In this document: piece after piece, positions 5,401 to 58,370 of the stretch
How the letters are laid out: every line of letters begins with the position of its first letter
How positions within the stretch are numbered: position 1 is the first letter of the stretch
Assembly (NCBI GenBank): GCA_017645765.1
Contig: JAGCNV010000046.1
Location: forward strand, 1 to 64,000
DNA from: a bacterium
GTDB taxonomy: Bacteria; UBP6; UBA1177
Direction of reading: 5' to 3'
DNA length: 64,000 nucleotides
The notes under the pieces: model-generated
The model's database searches: none
The model's input: the letters and a program-made list of their open reading frames with translations, nothing else
What the model was told of the DNA's origin: nothing
Program-made: the position numbers and the translations under genes

Positions 5401-5499
5401 AAAACTCGCTTGAAAAAGTGTATATTTGACTTGAAAACTCCATTGAAAAAGTGTATTCTTTAGCTGAAAACTCGCTTGAAAAAGTGTGTTTTTAAAGCG
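5401..5499. repeat. Tandem array, three 33-bp units, upstream of ATPase gene
   Basis: Three units start at 5401, 5434 and 5467, exactly 33 bp apart. Each begins AAAACTC followed by TTGAAAAAGTGT; the TTGAAA cores are at 5410, 5443 and 5476. The 3' half of each unit is AT-rich and less conserved. The array ends at the ribosome-binding site of the AAA/DUF4143 gene (GGAGG at 5499-5503). A promoter-like pair, TTGAAA at 5431-5436 and TATTCT at 5454-5459 with a 17-bp spacer, lies inside it. Three helical turns per unit would put binding sites on one face of the DNA, which suggests an operator array. The binding protein is unknown. Confidence 0.8.
5431..5459 (+). promoter_or_regulatory. Candidate promoter inside the 33-bp repeat array
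   Basis: TTGAAA (5431-5436), 17-bp spacer, TATTCT (5454-5459), 49 bp before the start codon of the ATPase gene. Both hexamers overlap repeat units, so occupancy of the repeats would be expected to affect transcription. Assigned by resemblance to sigma-70 promoters only. Confidence 0.4.
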
Positions 5500-6969: not shown

Positions 6970-9738
6970 ATGAAAAAAATCGTCAAATTTTTCGCAGTTT
7001 TTGCAATTTTTCTTTTCATTTTCACTGCGTGCAGCGGCAAAGGAAATTCAGGGAAACAGGAAATTTCCGACGATGATTCTGAAAATCAGGTTTCGGACAG
7101 TGATGAAATTCCAGACAATGATCCGGAAAATCATACTCCTGAACGAGAGGAATATCCGGGTGACGGCACTGAAAAGTATATTACGTTCACAGCCCCGTAT
7201 TCCACCGACAATAATGATGATGAAGAATACGAGTCTCCTGATGCTGAGGCTGCCGCTGATGCAGAGGAAAGCTGCGATTACTCAGGCAACGGTTACAAAT
7301 ATGCCGGACTTGCCGGAAACAACGAGGCTCTGAATGCAATCGCCGAAGCAGACAAATATAAGTTGGACGGAAACACCCTCTGGCTGACAAACAAATACAA
7401 AGGTTTGATTTCAGTTGATGTGAGCGATCCGAACAATCTGAAAGTCCTTGATACTCTCAAATTTAAAGGAAATATCGGAGAAATGTATATTTTGAACGGA
7501 AAACTTTATCTTCTTGTCAGCAATACCAACGAAAGTCTCGATGAAAACGGACTTTTCAACGGCAGCACCGTAACCTCAAAAATATTTGCTGTAAATGCTG
7601 AAGATCCTTCAAACATTTCCGTTGTCGGCGAATTGGAAATGAATGGTGAAATAACTGATTCCGGACTGAAGGGAGAAATAATTTATATTGCTGCGACAGA
7701 ATATGAGCTGAATCCTAATCCATGCGAGTCGTCATATAGTAGAAAGAATCAGATTTCCGTAGTGTCTGTGGATATTAAAGATCCTGAAAATTTAAGCATA
7801 ATTGACAAAGATTACGTTTCAATCGAAAGCTGCTGTCCTTATATCTACATTTCAGAAAAATCTGTTTATGTTGCCTACAACAGCGCGAATTTGGTTGTAA
7901 CGAGGTTTGATATCAGCGACATTTCGGGAAAAATCGCAAAAAAAGCCTCTTTCGACGTAGAAGGATATATCTTCGACATTTCAAAAATGTATGAACTGAA
8001 TGGTGTTTTTTATGCTTTGTCCTGTTCCGACTATTCCGGCTCAGGTAACGCCATACTTGAAAGTTTCGATGTCAGCGGTCCAGAGGCCAAAAGACTCGGC
8101 AAATCGGTTCTTACGGCGGAAGATAAATTATATGACTCCAGCTTCTTGGGAGACAGACTTTATGCCGGAGACTCATCATCATACGACGTAGTTCCTTTCA
8201 GCATAATAGATATCTCTGATCCCGGGAATTTTGTGAAACTCGGGGAACTTGAATTATCTGGTGGAATGAAACCTGTCAAAGCCATAGGAAACTACATTTT
8301 TACAACAGCTCCGGGTTTTAACGGAATTTGTCTCTATGATGTTTCTGATCCTCAGAAACCTAAAGAAATAGATCGGTTGTCGGGAGGAGGACAGAAGAAT
8401 TCGGAAACTTTAGATATTTTTGAAAGTGAAGGACTGATTGTCGACCCGAGAGGAACAAGTGTTTATTTTGTCGATTTTGATTTAAACAGAGGGTTTAGAA
8501 TGCGCGGGTCTGTTGTATCGAGAACTCCGATAGAACGCGGTATAGTTGCCGGAAATATTGTTTTCGGCATGAGCGATACGGAAATTTTATCGGTTGATAT
8601 AAATGACCGCGATAATCCGAAACTGCTTTCAGACAAGATTCTTGCCGAAGATATCAGTTTGATCTCGAAATGCCGCGAAAATATCTGCGGACAGACAGAT
8701 CTCGGTCTCAGTGTGTATAACACGGAAACGGATTTGATTTGGAAAAGCAGCATTAGCGGCAATTCATCGGCATTTCTGAAAAACAACAACTATATTTACT
8801 TCAACCGTTCAGCTTACGGCGGGACTGAAAACATCAAATTTCAGGTGGTAAAAATCAACGAGGAGCCTCCTTTTGAAGATCTCGGAGAGACTTTTATCGA
8901 TTTCTATTACGACTACTTTTTTATCAACTCTGTTTCGGAAAACAATGTCATTGCGACACGCATCATAGACCGCAGCAACACAAAGAATCAAAAAATCGCC
9001 TTTTTAAACATGAATGATCCGGGCAAAAAGGTAAAATCTGTCGAATTTGATTTTGAATACGAATTCCTGAGTCTTCTTTGGAAAGAATTTTTGACATCCG
9101 GCAGCAGATTCTGGACAAGCGGATGCAGACTCAAAAAGGCCGATCCGGAAAACGGAGACCAGTATTACTGCTATGTGCTGCCGTTCGATGCCAGCAATCC
9201 TTCGGAACCTAAAGCAGAAAAAAGGATCAACATTCCTGGCGAACTTGAGGCAGTCAGCGATGACGGCAGATACTTTTACACAAAAACTCCGGTCATTGAC
9301 GAAAAATATGATTTTTACGTTCTCGAAATCGATTACGCTAACTCAGAGGCGAATGTAGTCAGAAAATACACTTTGGATTCTCATGGTGTTTATGTCAAAA
9401 ACGACGTCATATTCTTGATCCATGTCAGATCTTACGGCGGCTGGACCGGCTGTGTTGATGATTCTTACAATTCTTACGACATCAAAGTTGTTTCTGCAGT
9501 TTCCGGCAAAGAACTATTCTCTGGAACTTTTGAACATGCAAAACTCTGGAATGTTGAGAACGGCGGAATCGCAGTTCTCCAGGGACGCGACAAACTTTAC
9601 TACATTTCGAAAGACGGCAAATCAACGCAATTTACCTTCAGCACGGATGCGGTGTGGAAAAACACAATGCTGTTTATGAGTGACAGGCTCTACATTTCAG
9701 CGGGATACGAAGGAATCTATTCTTTTGATGTGAAATAA
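6970..9738 (+). CDS. Beta-propeller lipoprotein, paralogue 1
   Basis: 922 residues. A signal peptide ends in a lipobox (IFTAC, Cys about residue 21), so the mature protein should be a lipoprotein. A disordered Asp/Glu/Asn-rich linker runs to about residue 100. The rest is repeated blades of the type GLISVDVSDPNNLKVLDTLK, resembling the secreted C-terminal beta-propeller (Beta_propel) and LVIVD-repeat families, which are usually surface proteins of unknown role. It ends GIYSFDVK. It is clearly paralogous to the gene at 11393-14302: both have GDGTE, then DPENGDQY...C and RINIPGE in the same order. The start is weakly supported by GGGG at 6960-6964. Codon use looks more AT-rich than in the second copy. 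Confidence 0.8.
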   Translation: MKKIVKFFAVFAIFLFIFTACSGKGNSGKQEISDDDSENQVSDSDEIPDNDPENHTPEREEYPGDGTEKYITFTAPYSTDNNDDEEYESPDAEAAADAEESCDYSGNGYKYAGLAGNNEALNAIAEADKYKLDGNTLWLTNKYKGLISVDVSDPNNLKVLDTLKFKGNIGEMYILNGKLYLLVSNTNESLDENGLFNGSTVTSKIFAVNAEDPSNISVVGELEMNGEITDSGLKGEIIYIAATEYELNPNPCESSYSRKNQISVVSVDIKDPENLSIIDKDYVSIESCCPYIYISEKSVYVAYNSANLVVTRFDISDISGKIAKKASFDVEGYIFDISKMYELNGVFYALSCSDYSGSGNAILESFDVSGPEAKRLGKSVLTAEDKLYDSSFLGDRLYAGDSSSYDVVPFSIIDISDPGNFVKLGELELSGGMKPVKAIGNYIFTTAPGFNGICLYDVSDPQKPKEIDRLSGGGQKNSETLDIFESEGLIVDPRGTSVYFVDFDLNRGFRMRGSVVSRTPIERGIVAGNIVFGMSDTEILSVDINDRDNPKLLSDKILAEDISLISKCRENICGQTDLGLSVYNTETDLIWKSSISGNSSAFLKNNNYIYFNRSAYGGTENIKFQVVKINEEPPFEDLGETFIDFYYDYFFINSVSENNVIATRIIDRSNTKNQKIAFLNMNDPGKKVKSVEFDFEYEFLSLLWKEFLTSGSRFWTSGCRLKKADPENGDQYYCYVLPFDASNPSEPKAEKRINIPGELEAVSDDGRYFYTKTPVIDEKYDFYVLEIDYANSEANVVRKYTLDSHGVYVKNDVIFLIHVRSYGGWTGCVDDSYNSYDIKVVSAVSGKELFSGTFEHAKLWNVENGGIAVLQGRDKLYYISKDGKSTQFTFSTDAVWKNTMLFMSDRLYISAGYEGIYSFDVK

Positions 9739-9741
9739 CCG

Positions 9742-11073
9742 TTACACTACAAACGGCGCCAGATAAAACGGCAGAAACTTGATCCCGTTTTCATCAAAAC
9801 GGTCTTTCTGCGAAAAAACTATTGTTTCTTTTACTGTTTTTGAATATTTTTTCTGAAATTCCGTCAGAGATTCATGTTTGCCTACTCCGGAAGATTTTAC
9901 TTCTATCGCGTTTACCTTAGCTCCGGCAGAAATCAGAAAATCTACTTCGTAATAATGAGTGCTGCCGCGTTTCTGCCATGTGTGGTAGTAAAGTTCGCGT
10001 CCGTCTGCCGCAATCATCTGTGCAACTAAATTTTCGTAAAGATAGCCTAAATTCGCCGGCAGTTTGTCGGAAAGCAGCTTCATATAAATTTCGTTTTCTG
10101 TATTTGGCCTGTCAATAAACATCAATGTGACAAAAATGCCGGTGTCTGCGACATAAAGTTTGTAACTTGAAAGGTCTTTCGTGGCTGCAAGAGTGACTCT
10201 CGGATCAGTAGTGTTGTATGCCGGAAGCACTGCTTTGGAATCAATCAGATCGAAAATGCGCTCGTCGTCTTTAGTCGATTTCCTGCTGCCGACAGCCTGA
10301 GAAACCGAAAATCTTTTGATTCCCTTCGAAAGCTGTGCAGGAATTGACTTGTACATCGCCGAAAGTTTTCCCGATTTGTCCAGTTTTTTAAAATCATCTT
10401 CATAAAGTTTTATGATATTCCGTTTGACAGCGTCGATCTCCGCGAAATTTTTACCGGAAATATAGGCTTCGACCGCCTGCGGCATACCGCCGACAGCCAT
10501 GTAGATCCTCAAATCGCGCATAACTTTTCTGTTTACCGCCTGCCCGAGTCCTATTCCGCTGTCATAAACCTGTTTTAGAATTTCGTAGTTTACAGCTTTC
10601 GTTGCCCATGAAAACTCTTCGAAATCCATAGGAAAAACCTGAATTTTCATTTCTTCCGACGGAATCAGAATATCCGCGACATTTTTTTTGATGGAAATGA
10701 GTGAACCGGTTTCGATATAATGGTATCTGCCGTCCGCAGCCAGATGTTTTATCGCCTGCCTCGCTTTAGGAAAAAGCTGGACTTCATCGAATATCACAAG
10801 CGATTTGTGCGGAACAAGGTTAATCCCCGTCTCGGTCTGAAGACGCAGAAAAAAAATATTGAGATTGCTTATATCGTCAAAACAGTCCAGAACCCTTTTT
10901 GACACATTGGCAAAATCAATAAGAATGTAACTTTCATATTCCTTTTTTGCGAACTGTTCCGCGATAGTTGACTTACCTACACGCCGTGCACCTTCGAGAA
11001 GGACCGCATATTTATCGGCATAGTTTCGTTTCCAATTAAGCAGTTTGTCGTAGACTTTCCTTTTAAAATACAT
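9742..11073 (-). CDS. AAA ATPase with DUF4143 C-terminal domain (copy 2)
   Basis: 443 residues on the minus strand. Walker A is GARRVGKS (residues 28-35) and Walker B VIFDEVQLF (about 92-100). The C-terminal DUF4143/nuclease-like segment reads YEVDFLISAGAKVNAIEVKS near residue 385. GGAGG lies 6 nt before the ATG at 11073. The gene is convergent with the first beta-propeller lipoprotein, with only 3 bp between their ends, and divergent from the second lipoprotein. Its upstream region carries a repeat array of the same 33-bp period as copy 1 but of different sequence. The two ATPases share the fold but are clearly diverged, so this is not a recent duplication. Function unknown. Confidence 0.85.
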   Translation of the reverse strand: MYFKRKVYDKLLNWKRNYADKYAVLLEGARRVGKSTIAEQFAKKEYESYILIDFANVSKRVLDCFDDISNLNIFFLRLQTETGINLVPHKSLVIFDEVQLFPKARQAIKHLAADGRYHYIETGSLISIKKNVADILIPSEEMKIQVFPMDFEEFSWATKAVNYEILKQVYDSGIGLGQAVNRKVMRDLRIYMAVGGMPQAVEAYISGKNFAEIDAVKRNIIKLYEDDFKKLDKSGKLSAMYKSIPAQLSKGIKRFSVSQAVGSRKSTKDDERIFDLIDSKAVLPAYNTTDPRVTLAATKDLSSYKLYVADTGIFVTLMFIDRPNTENEIYMKLLSDKLPANLGYLYENLVAQMIAADGRELYYHTWQKRGSTHYYEVDFLISAGAKVNAIEVKSSGVGKHESLTEFQKKYSKTVKETIVFSQKDRFDENGIKFLPFYLAPFVV

Positions 11074-11089
11074 GAGTTACCTCCACAAA

Positions 11090-11119
11090 AAACCTTGCTA
11101 AAATATCACGTTTTTGCAA
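11090..11119 (-). promoter_or_regulatory. Candidate promoter of ATPase copy 2
   Basis: On the minus strand TTGAAG, lying in the first repeat unit, is followed after 16 bp by TATTTT, which is preceded by GTGA, upstream of GGAGG and the ATG at 11073. The -35-like hexamer is the conserved core of the repeat, paralleling the arrangement at copy 1. Predicted from sequence resemblance only. Confidence 0.35.
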
Positions 11120-11279
11120 TTCTTCAAAGTTTTTCTGCCAAAAAAACTGCAATTCTTCAAAATTTTTTCTGTCAAAAACATGAAGTTATTCAAAGTTTAT
11201 CTTGAAAATCTGTCACTTTTTCACGGTATTTTCAAATGATTTTTGCCACTTTTTCCGCAAACCTTCTCAAAAATTTTCA
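11115..11279. repeat. 33-bp-period array upstream of ATPase copy 2
   Basis: Three clear units start at 11115, 11148 and 11181, exactly 33 bp apart; the first two begin TGCAATTCTTCAAA and the third is diverged (TGAAGTTATTCAAA). Two more begin CACTTTTTC at 11214 and 11247, again 33 apart. Read in the direction of the ATPase gene the cores are TTGAAGAATTG, TTGAAGAATTG, TTGAATAACTT, TGAAAAAGTG and GGAAAAAGTG, at spacings of 33, 33, 31 and 33 bp. The array fills most of the 319-bp gap between two divergent genes; element B fills the rest. It resembles the array at 5401-5499 in period and core. Confidence 0.75.
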
Positions 11280-11340
11280 CTTTTTTTAAAAAAATTATCA
11301 GAAAAATCGGCACAAGGTGGAACTAAACTATTGTATTTTT
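11274..11340 (+). repeat. Dispersed upstream element, copy B
   Basis: TTTTCAC, a T7A7 run, TTATCAGAAAAA and CGGCAC (11308-11313), then GGTGGAACTAAACTATTGTA. It is nearly the same as copy A in order and spacing, and shares TCAGAAAAATCGGCAC and GGTGGAACTAAA with copy C. It lies just upstream of the second beta-propeller lipoprotein and abuts the repeat array of the divergent ATPase. Confidence 0.75.
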
Positions 11341-11392
11341 GTTCAATTTGCTGAAAATTGAATGTTTTTTGAGTATTTTAATGGAGGTCGGG

Positions 11393-14302
11393 ATGAGTAA
11401 AATTTTTAAATTGTCGGCAGTTTTGATTATGGCGCTTTGTTTTGTCGTTTCCTGCGAAAACTCAAGTCAGAACAATGGCAAGCAGGAATTTGAGGGAGAC
11501 GGAACTGAAGAGTTCGTAACAGTCGGAGGTTCTTCGCAGGAAAAAGGTGATGCGAACGGCGGGGACTATGCTGACGAGGAAGCAGCGGCTGATGCTGAGG
11601 CTCCGAGTGACGATGCGGGGAACGGAAGCGGAGAGGCAGAGCGAGAAATCGTTGAATCTGATATTTACAAGTTCGACGGAAATGTTCTCTGGCTCGCAAA
11701 CCAGTACAAAGGTCTCATCGCGGTCGATATTAAAGATCCGGAAAACCTTAAAATTCTCGGGAACCTCAGATTTCAGGGATATGTCGGCGAGATGTATCTT
11801 CAGGAAGGCAGAGCTTACATCCTCGTAAGCTATACAAATTCGAGCTACGAATACGATGAGATCTACTATTCCAACAAGACTTATTCAAAACTTATGGTCG
11901 TAAACACCGAAGATCCGACAGATCTGAAACTCATCGGCGAATTCGAGATCGAAGGCTGGATCACCGATTCGAGACAGGTCGGAGACGTTATTTATGTCGC
12001 TTCTACGGAATACACTTATTACTGGTACGGATGCGACGGCGACGGCGGCGTGTCCGGGAAAGACCAGATTTCGATCATGTCGATCAATGTCAAAGATCCG
12101 GAAAATATAAAAATGGCAGACAAGGTTTCGGTCGAAGGATACGGATATACGCTTTATGTTTCGCAGAAATCGATATATGTTGCCGAAGCCGATACTTACT
12201 ACTGGGATGAGGATTACACCGAAGGTTATCCGGTAACGATGTTCGATATCAGCGACCCTGAAGGAAAAATCGTAAAGAAAGCCGAGTTCAGAACTGACGG
12301 TTTTATGAGCGACCGCTGGAAAATGCACGAAGTCGGCAACACTTTCTTCGCTGTAAGTTCATCATCGCAGTGGGGTAACGGCGATTCCTTCATCGAAAGT
12401 TTCGATGTCAGCGATCCGAAAAACATCAAAAAGCTCGACAAACTCATTTTCATGACCAAGCAGCAGCTTTACGGCACGAAATTCGAGGGCGACAGAATGT
12501 ACGCCGTCACTTATTTCCAGCAGGATCCGCTTCACGTAATCGATATTTCCGATCCGGCAAACTTGAAGCAGCTCGGAGAACTTGAAGTCCCCGGATGGTC
12601 TGATTTCATCGAAGTAAGAGGAACGACGATCCTTGCAGTCGGACGCGACAATTCAAAATCCAAGATCAGTATGTACGACGTTTCAGACCCTGAAGATCCT
12701 AAAGAGATAAACACCGTCGAAGTCGGCTCAGGCTACAGCTACAGCGAAGCAAACTACGACTGGAAAGCGTTCAAGATTTTTGATGAACTCGGTCTGATCC
12801 TCCTTCCGCTTACCGATTACGACTATGATTCGTGGGATAACATCTACAAACTTTACCTCATTGATTTCGATCTTGACAACGGTTTGAAAACACGCGGTTA
12901 CATCGCTTCTGACAGCTACATCAGACGCGGCGTGGCGATTCAGGATCTCATTTTCAGTATCGGCGAAAACCACCTCGTAACAGCTGACGCAAGTGACCGC
13001 GACAACCCGAAAGTTCTCTCGGAACTTACACTCGCTGTCTATGTCAACGGCATTACGAATTGCGGAAAAGCACTCTGCGGATTTGATCTTGACCACATGA
13101 ATTTCAATGCATACGACAAAACCACAGGCGAAACAGTCTGGACGACAAAAACACTGCCGCAGAATTCGTATTCCTACGTCAACTTTGCAAAGAACGGTAA
13201 CTTTGCTTATATTTCCCGCACAATCATCAACAGTGAAAAAAACGATACCGAACCTGCCATAAAAGTCATAAAATTCAGTGATGACGGCAAATTTGAAGAA
13301 ACCGGGGACTTCTTCCTGGGTGAAGGAAACGAGCTTACATGGATCCAGAACGCCTCCGAAAACAATGTCATAGCAGCTATTGTCGAAAACACAGACTGGT
13401 ATGAAGATCATTCCGGATCAAGACAGATGATGAGACTGCTTGACATGAACAAGCCTGAAAAGGGAATAAAAACGACCGATTTCGATTTCGATTACGAGTT
13501 CCTTGACTATGGAAGAAAAATCTTTGCACTCAAAGACAGCTTCTGGACAAGCGGCTGCAAACTCAAAAAGGAGGATCCGGAAAACGGCGATCAGTATCTC
13601 TGCTACGCGCTTTCCTACGATGCAGGCAGCCCGTCGAGCCCGAAAGAAAACCAGCGTATCAATATCCCGGGCGAAATTGTCGGAATCAGCAAGGACGGAA
13701 AATATCTCTACACACAGACCCCGACAATCTACAGCTATTCGGATGACGAAGACTCTGTAAGCAGTGACGATGACTACTACTGGTCAAGTTCCAGAACTTA
13801 CGACTTCTACATTCTTAAGCTCAACGACAGCAAAACTGCTGTAAAAGTTGTCAAAAAAGAGACTGTCAGCAATTCATACAGCTACTCTGACGGCAAATAT
13901 GAATCTACGGCAAACAACGTTTACGCCAAAAACGACAAAGTTTTCTTCGTAAAGACTTTTACCGGCGAAGAATGGAATACCTGCTCCTACAGAAGCAGCG
14001 GAACAACGGAAATCAGACTTGTTTCGGCGGCTGACGGCAGGGAACTCTACAAAAAATCGTTCGACAACGCGAAATCAATTCTCAATGTAAACGACGGCGG
14101 CATGCTTGTTTCGACTACTGAAGGATGGACTTACATCGCTCCCGACGGCAAGGAAAAATCGGGCAGTGACGACATTTCATTTGCAAGTTACTACAATTAC
14201 TACGGCTACCGTGACACCTACAACTCAGAACCGCAGCTTATCGACGGAAAAATCTACATCGCAGCCGGCTGGGACGGCATCTATTCGCTCAACGTAAAAT
14301 AG
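11393..14302 (+). CDS. Beta-propeller lipoprotein, paralogue 2
   Basis: 969 residues from the ATG at 11393, which has GGAGG nearby at 11383-11387. An upstream in-frame TTG at 11339 lies within the regulatory element and would displace the signal peptide. The signal peptide ends in the lipobox VVSC. A short acidic linker (residues 22-80) follows, then a long series of propeller-like blades such as GLIAVDIKDPENLKILGNLR and MFDISDPEGKIVKKAEF, ending GIYSLNVK. The protein is rich in Tyr, Ser and Asp, typical of surface-exposed repeats. It parallels the 6970-9738 protein over its whole length. Probable outer-membrane-anchored protein; ligand or role unknown. Confidence 0.8.
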   Translation: MSKIFKLSAVLIMALCFVVSCENSSQNNGKQEFEGDGTEEFVTVGGSSQEKGDANGGDYADEEAAADAEAPSDDAGNGSGEAEREIVESDIYKFDGNVLWLANQYKGLIAVDIKDPENLKILGNLRFQGYVGEMYLQEGRAYILVSYTNSSYEYDEIYYSNKTYSKLMVVNTEDPTDLKLIGEFEIEGWITDSRQVGDVIYVASTEYTYYWYGCDGDGGVSGKDQISIMSINVKDPENIKMADKVSVEGYGYTLYVSQKSIYVAEADTYYWDEDYTEGYPVTMFDISDPEGKIVKKAEFRTDGFMSDRWKMHEVGNTFFAVSSSSQWGNGDSFIESFDVSDPKNIKKLDKLIFMTKQQLYGTKFEGDRMYAVTYFQQDPLHVIDISDPANLKQLGELEVPGWSDFIEVRGTTILAVGRDNSKSKISMYDVSDPEDPKEINTVEVGSGYSYSEANYDWKAFKIFDELGLILLPLTDYDYDSWDNIYKLYLIDFDLDNGLKTRGYIASDSYIRRGVAIQDLIFSIGENHLVTADASDRDNPKVLSELTLAVYVNGITNCGKALCGFDLDHMNFNAYDKTTGETVWTTKTLPQNSYSYVNFAKNGNFAYISRTIINSEKNDTEPAIKVIKFSDDGKFEETGDFFLGEGNELTWIQNASENNVIAAIVENTDWYEDHSGSRQMMRLLDMNKPEKGIKTTDFDFDYEFLDYGRKIFALKDSFWTSGCKLKKEDPENGDQYLCYALSYDAGSPSSPKENQRINIPGEIVGISKDGKYLYTQTPTIYSYSDDEDSVSSDDDYYWSSSRTYDFYILKLNDSKTAVKVVKKETVSNSYSYSDGKYESTANNVYAKNDKVFFVKTFTGEEWNTCSYRSSGTTEIRLVSAADGRELYKKSFDNAKSILNVNDGGMLVSTTEGWTYIAPDGKEKSGSDDISFASYYNYYGYRDTYNSEPQLIDGKIYIAAGWDGIYSLNVK

Positions 14303-57299: not shown

Positions 57300-58370
57300 T
57301 TATTGCGCTTCAGGTGCGTCTGCGTTGTCCTGTTTTGCGAATTCCGCATCCATTGCCGAGAGGATACCGTCGCTGATGGTGACGTCGAATTCCATTTCAC
57401 CGGCTACAACATGGGCTTCGCCGTTGTCGTAATCGCCCGAGGTGATCTCGAAAGTGCCTTCAGCGTTGATTTTCTTCTCAGGCTCTCTGCCGTCTTCTAC
57501 AGAGTAGACTTTGCTGCTGGTTACAACCAGAGTGTTGTCGTTGAAAAGGAAGACTGCTTCGATTTTTATTTTGTCATCGTCTTTTTCTTTGAGCATATAC
57601 CATGCATCCAGGGTCTTGTCTGCGTAAGATGCCGGCAGATATGCTTCCGGTTCGGTTGCAAATCCCGATTCGCCGTTTTCTTTTTCTTTTTCAGCTGCAT
57701 CACAGTATGCTGTTAAATCCGACATTGCCTGAACACACTCTTCCGAACCGCTTTCCATGCATTCGTATTTTTTACCGTCTACTTCATACCAGTAGGATTC
57801 ATCTTTTGTGCATTGTTTGAGAGCTTTGCCGCCGCACTCGTCAGGGTCTTCGGTCGTAACGCAAGTCGCACCGTCTTCCTCGGTGTATTCGATATTTGTG
57901 TCGTAGCAGTAGTTGTGCAGTTCTATTGCAGCTTGGGTGCAGTCGTTTTCGTCGCATTCGAATTTTTTATTGTCTACTTCATACCATACCGAGTCGTCAT
58001 TCGAGCAGTATTTTACAGGTTTGCCGTTGCAGTCTTCAGAATCTTGAGTCGCAACACAAACAGTACCGTCTTCATCTTCATAATCAACGTTGGTATCGTA
58101 GCAGTAATTGTTCAGGTCTACTGCTGCTTTTGTGCAGTCGCCGTCAGCTTTGCATTCGAATTTCTTGCCGGTACCTTCGACTTCATACCAATAATCATCG
58201 CCTTCAACGCAAGCTCTGACCTCGTGTCCTTTGCAGTCACCGGAGAAATCGGAGCATACTTTGTCTCCGTCGGAGTAGTATCCGTCACCTGTGAGACCGC
58301 TTCCGCCGCCGCATGACATCATCAGAAACATTGCACTAAAAACAGCCGTCAAAATAAAAAGCTTTTTCAT
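57300..58370 (-). CDS. Lipoprotein with three Cys-rich tandem repeats
   Basis: 356 residues. The signal peptide ends in LMMSC (Cys20). Three tandem repeats of about 60 residues follow (about 37-95, 97-155, 157-215). Each has the order C...C.G..(V/L)..C....D..WYEV...KFEC....C..A...L..YC. Even Cys numbers suggest disulfide-bonded modules outside the cytoplasm. The rest is a beta-rich domain of about 110 residues (MLKEKDDDKIKIEAVFLFND) ending acidic. An outer-membrane or surface lipoprotein; family not recognised. Confidence 0.75.
   Translation of the reverse strand: MKKLFILTAVFSAMFLMMSCGGGSGLTGDGYYSDGDKVCSDFSGDCKGHEVRACVEGDDYWYEVEGTGKKFECKADGDCTKAAVDLNNYCYDTNVDYEDEDGTVCVATQDSEDCNGKPVKYCSNDDSVWYEVDNKKFECDENDCTQAAIELHNYCYDTNIEYTEEDGATCVTTEDPDECGGKALKQCTKDESYWYEVDGKKYECMESGSEECVQAMSDLTAYCDAAEKEKENGESGFATEPEAYLPASYADKTLDAWYMLKEKDDDKIKIEAVFLFNDNTLVVTSSKVYSVEDGREPEKKINAEGTFEITSGDYDNGEAHVVAGEMEFDVTISDGILSAMDAEFAKQDNADAPEAQ

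Follow-up and report, generated by a model that had tools for sequence, protein, structure and literature searches.

The locus and its two upstream arrays

The stretch of DNA analysed here, referred to as the window, is the first 64 kb of contig JAGCNV010000046.1. It carries two genes for ATPases, designated P0001 and P0002, and a short array of direct repeats with a 33-bp period lies upstream of each (Table 1). Judged by comparison with homologous genes, an upstream array is a general feature of these ATPases, and that of P0002 is one case of it.

Both proteins match profile hidden Markov models of PDC-S01 over the full length and combine a Walker A/B ATPase with a PD-(D/E)XK motif, as indicated by the Pfam families AAA_14 and DUF4143 and by residue conservation. 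All 31 proteins of alignment A1 likewise fit the PADLOC PDC-S01 models. PDC-S01 is a single-gene phage-defence candidate, reportedly the fourth commonest in prokaryotes, which is unvalidated and whose mechanism is not known (PMC12988326). Gly28, Gly33, Lys34, Asp96, Asp378, and Lys393 (P0002 numbering) are invariant across 54 aligned proteins, and Glu391 is found in at least 90% of them; the PD-(D/E)XK residues Glu347, Asp378, Glu391, and Lys393 vary little or not at all. The AlphaFold model of P0002 is confident (predicted local distance difference test score of 91.6; predicted template modelling (TM) score of 0.90). The folds closest to it are those of MalT, of Orc1/Cdc6 in complex with origin DNA, of MuB-DNA filaments, and of plant and bacterial STAND assemblies, including resistosomes. 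The top match, a MalT structure, was obtained with a Foldseek E-value of 1.9e-6 and a probability of 1.00, at a chain-wide TM-score of only 0.29. When solved structures were sought by sequence, nothing nearer than short P-loop matches was found. The ATPase is predicted to belong to the STAND/ORC-like AAA+ proteins, its middle region being made of helical and winged-helix-like parts, and to have a PD-(D/E)XK domain.

Tandem Repeats Finder (TRF) reported the 33-bp period with 2.6 copies and a score of 125 before P0001 (array 1), and with 2.7 copies and a score of 111 upstream of P0002 (array 2). In neither case was the lag-33 score equalled by any of 3000 dinucleotide-preserving shuffles. In array 2, the core TTTGAAGAATTGC lies on the minus strand at 11116-11128 and 11149-11161, directed toward P0002, and the third unit carries the degenerate core TTTGAATAACTTC on the same strand. 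Outside this unit are three distal sites, whose minus-strand cores are, in order, GTGAAAAAGTG, GCGGAAAAAGTG, and AAAAAAAGTG. The step from 11214 to 11247 is 33 bp and that from 11247 to 11278 is 31 bp.

An earlier sequence-only reading of this DNA had described a single array of 33-bp period for P0002 at 11115-11279, with units at 11115, 11148, and 11181 followed by repeats at 11214 and 11247. The period and all five positions were confirmed by TRF, repeat search, direct reading of the sequence, and the shuffles; the site at 11278 had been missed. The assignment of the whole to P0002 held for 11115-11202 and is doubtful for the distal sites. On the strand of P0002, the distal word is of the GAAAAAGTG type, that is, the P0001 core. 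These sites are retained in L057, a 98% identical orthologue of P0002, except for one 33-bp unit. They were not found upstream of L058 (77% identity) or of L116 (64%, from a Clostridiaceae genome), where only TTGAAGAAATGC units are present. Because the distal sites have no counterpart in these two relatives and their word is the P0001 core, they are not clearly P0002's own sites; judged from the sequences, they are probably a P0001-type array or its remnant.

The arrays are inherited together with their genes. All that genome G010 shares with the window is a block running from the first base of array 1 to the stop codon of P0001, and genome G009 shares a block made of P0002 and array 2 proper; in both cases, the context is unrelated. 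In genomes G008, G011, and G012 the shared block also begins at 5401, but it is on the opposite side of the first propeller gene. The orthologue L057 is in G011 and has exactly one 33-bp distal unit fewer, seen as a 33-bp gap in the alignment. This means that copy number moves by whole units, with the phase retained.

Occurrence, spacing, and core words

The genome that contains the window has 24 DUF4143 proteins, and 23 of their upstream regions were testable. By lag autocorrelation, an array at p ≤ 0.01 was detected upstream in 19/23 cases in this genome, in 37/46 in related genomes, and in 65/78 in other phyla. The last set (Bacillota, Bacteroidota, Spirochaetota, Fibrobacter, Actinomycetota, Kiritimatiellae, Lentisphaeria, and Aeromonadales) was chosen for similarity to P0002; the p-values were obtained from 200 shuffles, and many of the orthologues are redundant. 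Clean controls, defined as other genes of the same loci sharing no 25-mer with any ATPase upstream region, were positive in 12 of 322 cases, and none of the 322 had a period of 32-34 bp. Without the 25-mer filter, 15 of 200 controls were positive, a value inflated by neighbours sharing the same intergenic array. Arrays are also visible by eye upstream of plasmid copies from Collinsella, Glaesserella, Segatella, Agathobacter, and Criblamydia. The classical DUF4143 proteins, which have the Walker A motif GPRQxGKT and comprise L001 and the majority of L028-L053, were used for contrast; nearly all of them are without 33-bp arrays by the same inspection, L054 being a likely exception. A search of the open-access literature, a scope that leaves out most subscription journals and preprints, gave no prior description of upstream arrays and a single paper in which DUF4143 is mentioned.

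The spacing is narrowly distributed. It is exactly 33 bp in 208 of 283 intervals when all arrays are counted. In a non-redundant set of 63 arrays, whose proteins are less than 70% identical, 33 bp was found in 89 of 137 intervals and 32-34 bp in 115 of 137. A second ATPase subfamily (L006, L007, L008, and L012; KWCGKT-type Walker A) shows a spacing of 23 bp in 13 intervals, shorter by about one helical turn. Upstream of L005, L235, and L240, the word GAAAAARTGT is present in both orientations, so that each 33-bp unit is an inverted pair and not a single asymmetric site.

In ten clades, several of them phylum-mixed, a core of 12-16 bp reaches nearly 2 bits per position; the linker stays near 0 bits, and its length is retained. 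Core similarity is linked to protein similarity (Mantel r 0.25, p 0.001). The share of pairs whose cores agree in 11 or more of 12 bases is 76% at 80-95% protein identity, 19% at 60-80%, 1.7% at 50-60%, and less than 1% in the lower bins. Below 60% identity, the mean core match is close to that of the reversed-word control. The P0002 core TTTGAAGAAWTGC is retained upstream of the 98%, 77%, and 64% relatives, and its presence at L116 is taken as a cross-phylum match, since the phylum of the window is represented by only 28 genomes in the collection and hence is not Bacillota. The P0001 core TTGAAAAAGTG is common to L011, a 76% identical paralogue on another contig (C60) of the same genome. In L011 the motif IEVK reads IKVK, lysine replacing the catalytic-motif glutamate, and the protein is possibly nuclease-dead to judge by this substitution. 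Apart from a few such pairs, the cores of paralogues within the genome are no more alike than expected by chance. The P0001 and P0002 cores are almost confined to their own arrays in this genome; with one stray match for each, that of P0001 lying inside the P0001 coding sequence, a role of the cores as a genome-wide regulon was rejected.

Core similarity follows the C-terminal two thirds of the protein and not the N-terminal ATPase part. In a sliding-window comparison, the signal covers residues 120-440 of P0002, peaks at 356-386, and falls to about zero or below in the greater part of 1-110. Because of this correlation with the C-terminal two thirds, the sequences are consistent with core recognition by the winged-helix or the PD-(D/E)XK part. 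The signal is too broad, and the pairs are not independent, so that the naming of specificity residues by this approach was dropped.

The sequence-only reading had supposed that the geometry is under selection and that each ATPase has a specific site. The spacings in the non-redundant arrays, found together with unrelated linkers, agree with the former. The dependence of core similarity on protein identity speaks for the site specificity, as far as comparison of sequences can indicate, and the information content of core and linker shows that the core is conserved. Plain slippage repeats without such a core, the contrary case it had considered, were not found, though copy number shifts by whole units.

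Promoter context and arrays without an ATPase

In the median case, the last core begins 49 bp ahead of the start codon. An overlap between a core and the best sigma-70-like promoter was found in 103 of 127 arrays, compared with 87 expected under uniform placement. Many arrays have a core in the spacer that separates the -35 and -10 hexamers, as in L118 (TTGACAATTTGCGATTTTGCGGTATAAT) and L145 (TTTACAAACCTTAATATTTGTGCATATAAT). A -10 box follows the last unit in 37% of cases and the other units in 20% (p 2e-4).

Arrays of the P0001 word also occur without an ATPase. Pairs of the word about 31-35 bp apart were searched for in IMG/VR. Pairs of TTGAAAAAGTG were found in two contigs, the T7-like L209 (three units, 33 bp) and L208 (two units, 32 bp). 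The shorter word GAAAAAGTGT gave 15 stretches from about six families, all at 32-33 bp and one of them with three units (L210). Reversed, this word gave no matches in IMG/VR, compared with 17 true matches for the P0001 words. In 16 viral records, which are possibly fragments, a profile search did not find the ATPase; the genome containing the window served as the positive control and was matched. In marine contigs, the array precedes, by about 100 bp, a gene named by inspection as that of a T4-like DNA polymerase. Viral scans with five other cores, that of P0002 included, gave no arrays. Two bacterial sequences, L236 (1501-1543, in G011) and L241 (in G002), have a two-unit P0001-word array at 33-bp spacing, and no ATPase lies within 1.5 kb of it; the array of L236 is followed, after about 95 bp, by a RhuM/Fic-like gene. 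These two arrays may be either relics or targets regulated in trans. Several roles are conceivable for the phage arrays: they may be decoys or targets, be left over from cassettes since lost, or serve unrelated phage regulators as operators.

Table 1. Positions of the ATPase genes, arrays, and associated features (window coordinates unless a contig is named)
Feature	Position	Strand	Evidence
P0001, AAA_14 + DUF4143 ATPase, 445 residues	5509..6846	+	Pfam; PDC-S01 E 8e-140
P0002, AAA_14 + DUF4143 ATPase, 443 residues	9742..11073	-	PF13173 E 9.6e-23; PF13635 E 6.5e-18; PDC-S01 E 8e-90
Array 1, three 33-bp units, cores TTGAAAAAGTG at 5410, 5443, 5476	5401..5487	+	TRF, pattern search, shuffles
Array 2 proper, P0002-type core TTTGAAGAAWTGC, units at 11115, 11148, 11181	11115..11202	-	TRF, repeat search, shuffles
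Three distal P0001-type sites, CACTTTTTC at 11214 and 11247, CACTTTTTTT at 11278	11214..11287	-	Direct reading, L057 alignment
Promoter-like TTGAAA-N17-TATTCT with second core of array 1 in spacer	5431..5459	+	Consensus scan, 1 found vs 0.4 expected; weak alone
Putative transferable block, array 1 + P0001	5401..6846	+	blastn block L246; all that G010 shares; unrelated context
Putative transferable block, P0002 + array 2 proper	9751..11194	-	blastn block L247; G009; unrelated context
Phage-contig arrays of P0001 word	L208 649-691; L209 about 1074-1150; L210 9902-9944; L211 2288-2330; L214 6676-6718		

Beta-propeller (PF09826) paralogues flank the two ATPases in the window, at 6970-9738 and 11339-14302. 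Two 195-bp direct repeats, 73% alike, occupy 57749-58138 in an open reading frame without a Pfam match (57300-58370, minus strand).

Proposed role of the arrays and comparison with known systems

The array, its geometry, its private core, and its co-inheritance with the gene are seen directly in the comparisons above. From these we infer, as a fairly probable reading, that each array is a private cis operator on which its own ATPase binds cooperatively along one face of the DNA and thereby regulates, most likely represses, its own gene. The ATPase would recognise the asymmetric core of 12-16 bp. Three or four head-to-tail cores at 33 bp, corresponding to three helical turns, would place the bound subunits on one DNA face, where they could touch each other and so assemble cooperatively, perhaps like a filament. 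The array is positioned over or beside the predicted promoter and the start codon. Repression seems the likelier sign because of this apparent overlap and because an ATPase-nuclease without regulation would presumably be costly: the potentially harmful protein would be held low until some trigger lifts the repression. With private cores, the 20 or so copies in one cell would not repress one another.

Several observations weigh against autoregulation through a private operator. The strongest correlation between protein and core is in the PD-(D/E)XK region (residues 356-386 of P0002) and not in the winged helix, and the whole-chain TM-scores of the P0002 model to solved structures are low (0.2-0.4). 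In the non-redundant arrays, the enrichment of the -10 box after the last unit is reduced to 32% versus 23% (p 0.14). For P0002, the only promoter-like site given by a strict scan, at 11357-11330, is upstream of the entire array, which would put array 2 in the leader RNA. Four of the 23 genes in the genome have no array at p ≤ 0.01; therefore, the ATPase can manage without one. The phage-borne arrays without an ATPase are also left unexplained.

Alternatively, the array may be mainly the target of the PD-(D/E)XK domain. The ATPase would then assemble on the repeats and cut or remodel DNA, either for mobility, in which the array-gene cassette would home or be copied, or against repeat-bearing invaders, the promoter overlap being secondary. 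The array and gene form a block common to genomes with unrelated flanks, P0001 is found on different sides of the propeller gene, the PD-(D/E)XK residues vary little if at all, the nuclease region is the best correlate of core similarity, and phage contigs carry ATPase-free arrays of the same word. However, the arrays stay at the gene start, aligned with the start codon and promoter, neither of which is required by mobility, and the host genome would itself contain the target. This explanation is considered unlikely, if worth keeping in mind. A control element in the 5' leader of the mRNA, acting on translation or processing, would fit the units that almost touch the start codon in some genes (L016 and L118) and the possible upstream promoter of P0002, which would bring the array into the transcript. 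A spacing in helical turns (33 or 23 bp) is, however, a property of DNA, many cores are inside the -35/-10 spacer and hence untranscribed, and no Rfam match was obtained, so that an RNA element has only a small chance of being the answer.

A separate host regulator binding each array has a precedent in RptR, a stand-alone repressor acting on three direct repeats. About 20 private regulators per genome would be required in that case, and the core accompanies the ATPase from phylum to phylum and into unrelated contexts, in blocks that contain no second gene; the chance of such a regulator is slight at best. Neutral tandem duplication by slippage could produce the whole-unit difference between the 98% orthologues and the near-identical linkers of a few arrays, such as that of L075. 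It would hardly explain why linkers differ within one array while core and length persist, or why the same core persists between phyla. An origin by slippage alone, as a minisatellite, was rejected on the linkers near 0 bits and the 0/322 clean controls at 32-34 bp, and slippage as the whole explanation is barely credible.

In addition to autoregulation from a private operator, the arrays might double as a defence sensor, the paralogue words being a repertoire of recognised invader sequences. An incoming array would titrate the ATPase off its own operator, so that its synthesis starts; alternatively, the array would be a platform for assembly of the ATPase-nuclease, or a phage decoy soaking up the ATPase. 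This extension is rather improbable at present.

The proposal of private sites in a selected geometry is supported and generalised by the present comparisons. A paralogue-specific word at fixed geometry throughout the family means that a predicted binding site can be read from sequence for each member. Binding, autoregulation, insulation between paralogues, and the link to phage DNA become directly testable, and the many protein-core pairs that occur naturally could show which residues determine specificity. What is at stake is PDC-S01, a very common defence candidate yet without a known mechanism (PMC12988326). P0001 and P0002 resemble PDC-S01, which is part of COG1373, in their profile matches and in the AAA_14 plus DUF4143 / PD-(D/E)XK architecture.

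The arrays share short direct repeats at regular spacing with clustered regularly interspaced short palindromic repeats (CRISPR). An assignment as a CRISPR array was rejected, as the cores are 12-16 bp long and mostly in three or four copies, with one distinct core per gene and each array found where an ATPase gene begins. Plasmid iterons are present as several head-to-tail copies at about helical-turn spacing beside the Rep gene, which is autoregulated. The arrays are similar in copy arrangement and in lying next to the gene of the binding protein, here a predicted one; they differ in that there is no match to a replication-initiator family and no origin, and in being chromosomal, multi-copy, and spaced at 33 bp. 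MalT acts at repeated asymmetric sites, the MalT boxes. It is described as a STAND ATPase that multimerises (PMC4381067). The repeated sites and the top fold match of the P0002 model, with its low TM-score, are the points of likeness; however, MalT lacks a nuclease domain and is an activator of other genes, whereas the sites described here are at the start of the gene itself and differ from paralogue to paralogue. In E. coli, RptR acts as the repressor of a phage-defence island through three direct repeats in its promoter (PMC12255303). Its operator is bound by a separate small regulator and has a 6-bp palindromic minimal site conserved across species. In the arrays of the ATPases, by contrast, the core is longer, mostly asymmetric, and particular to the paralogue, and the gene is on its own.
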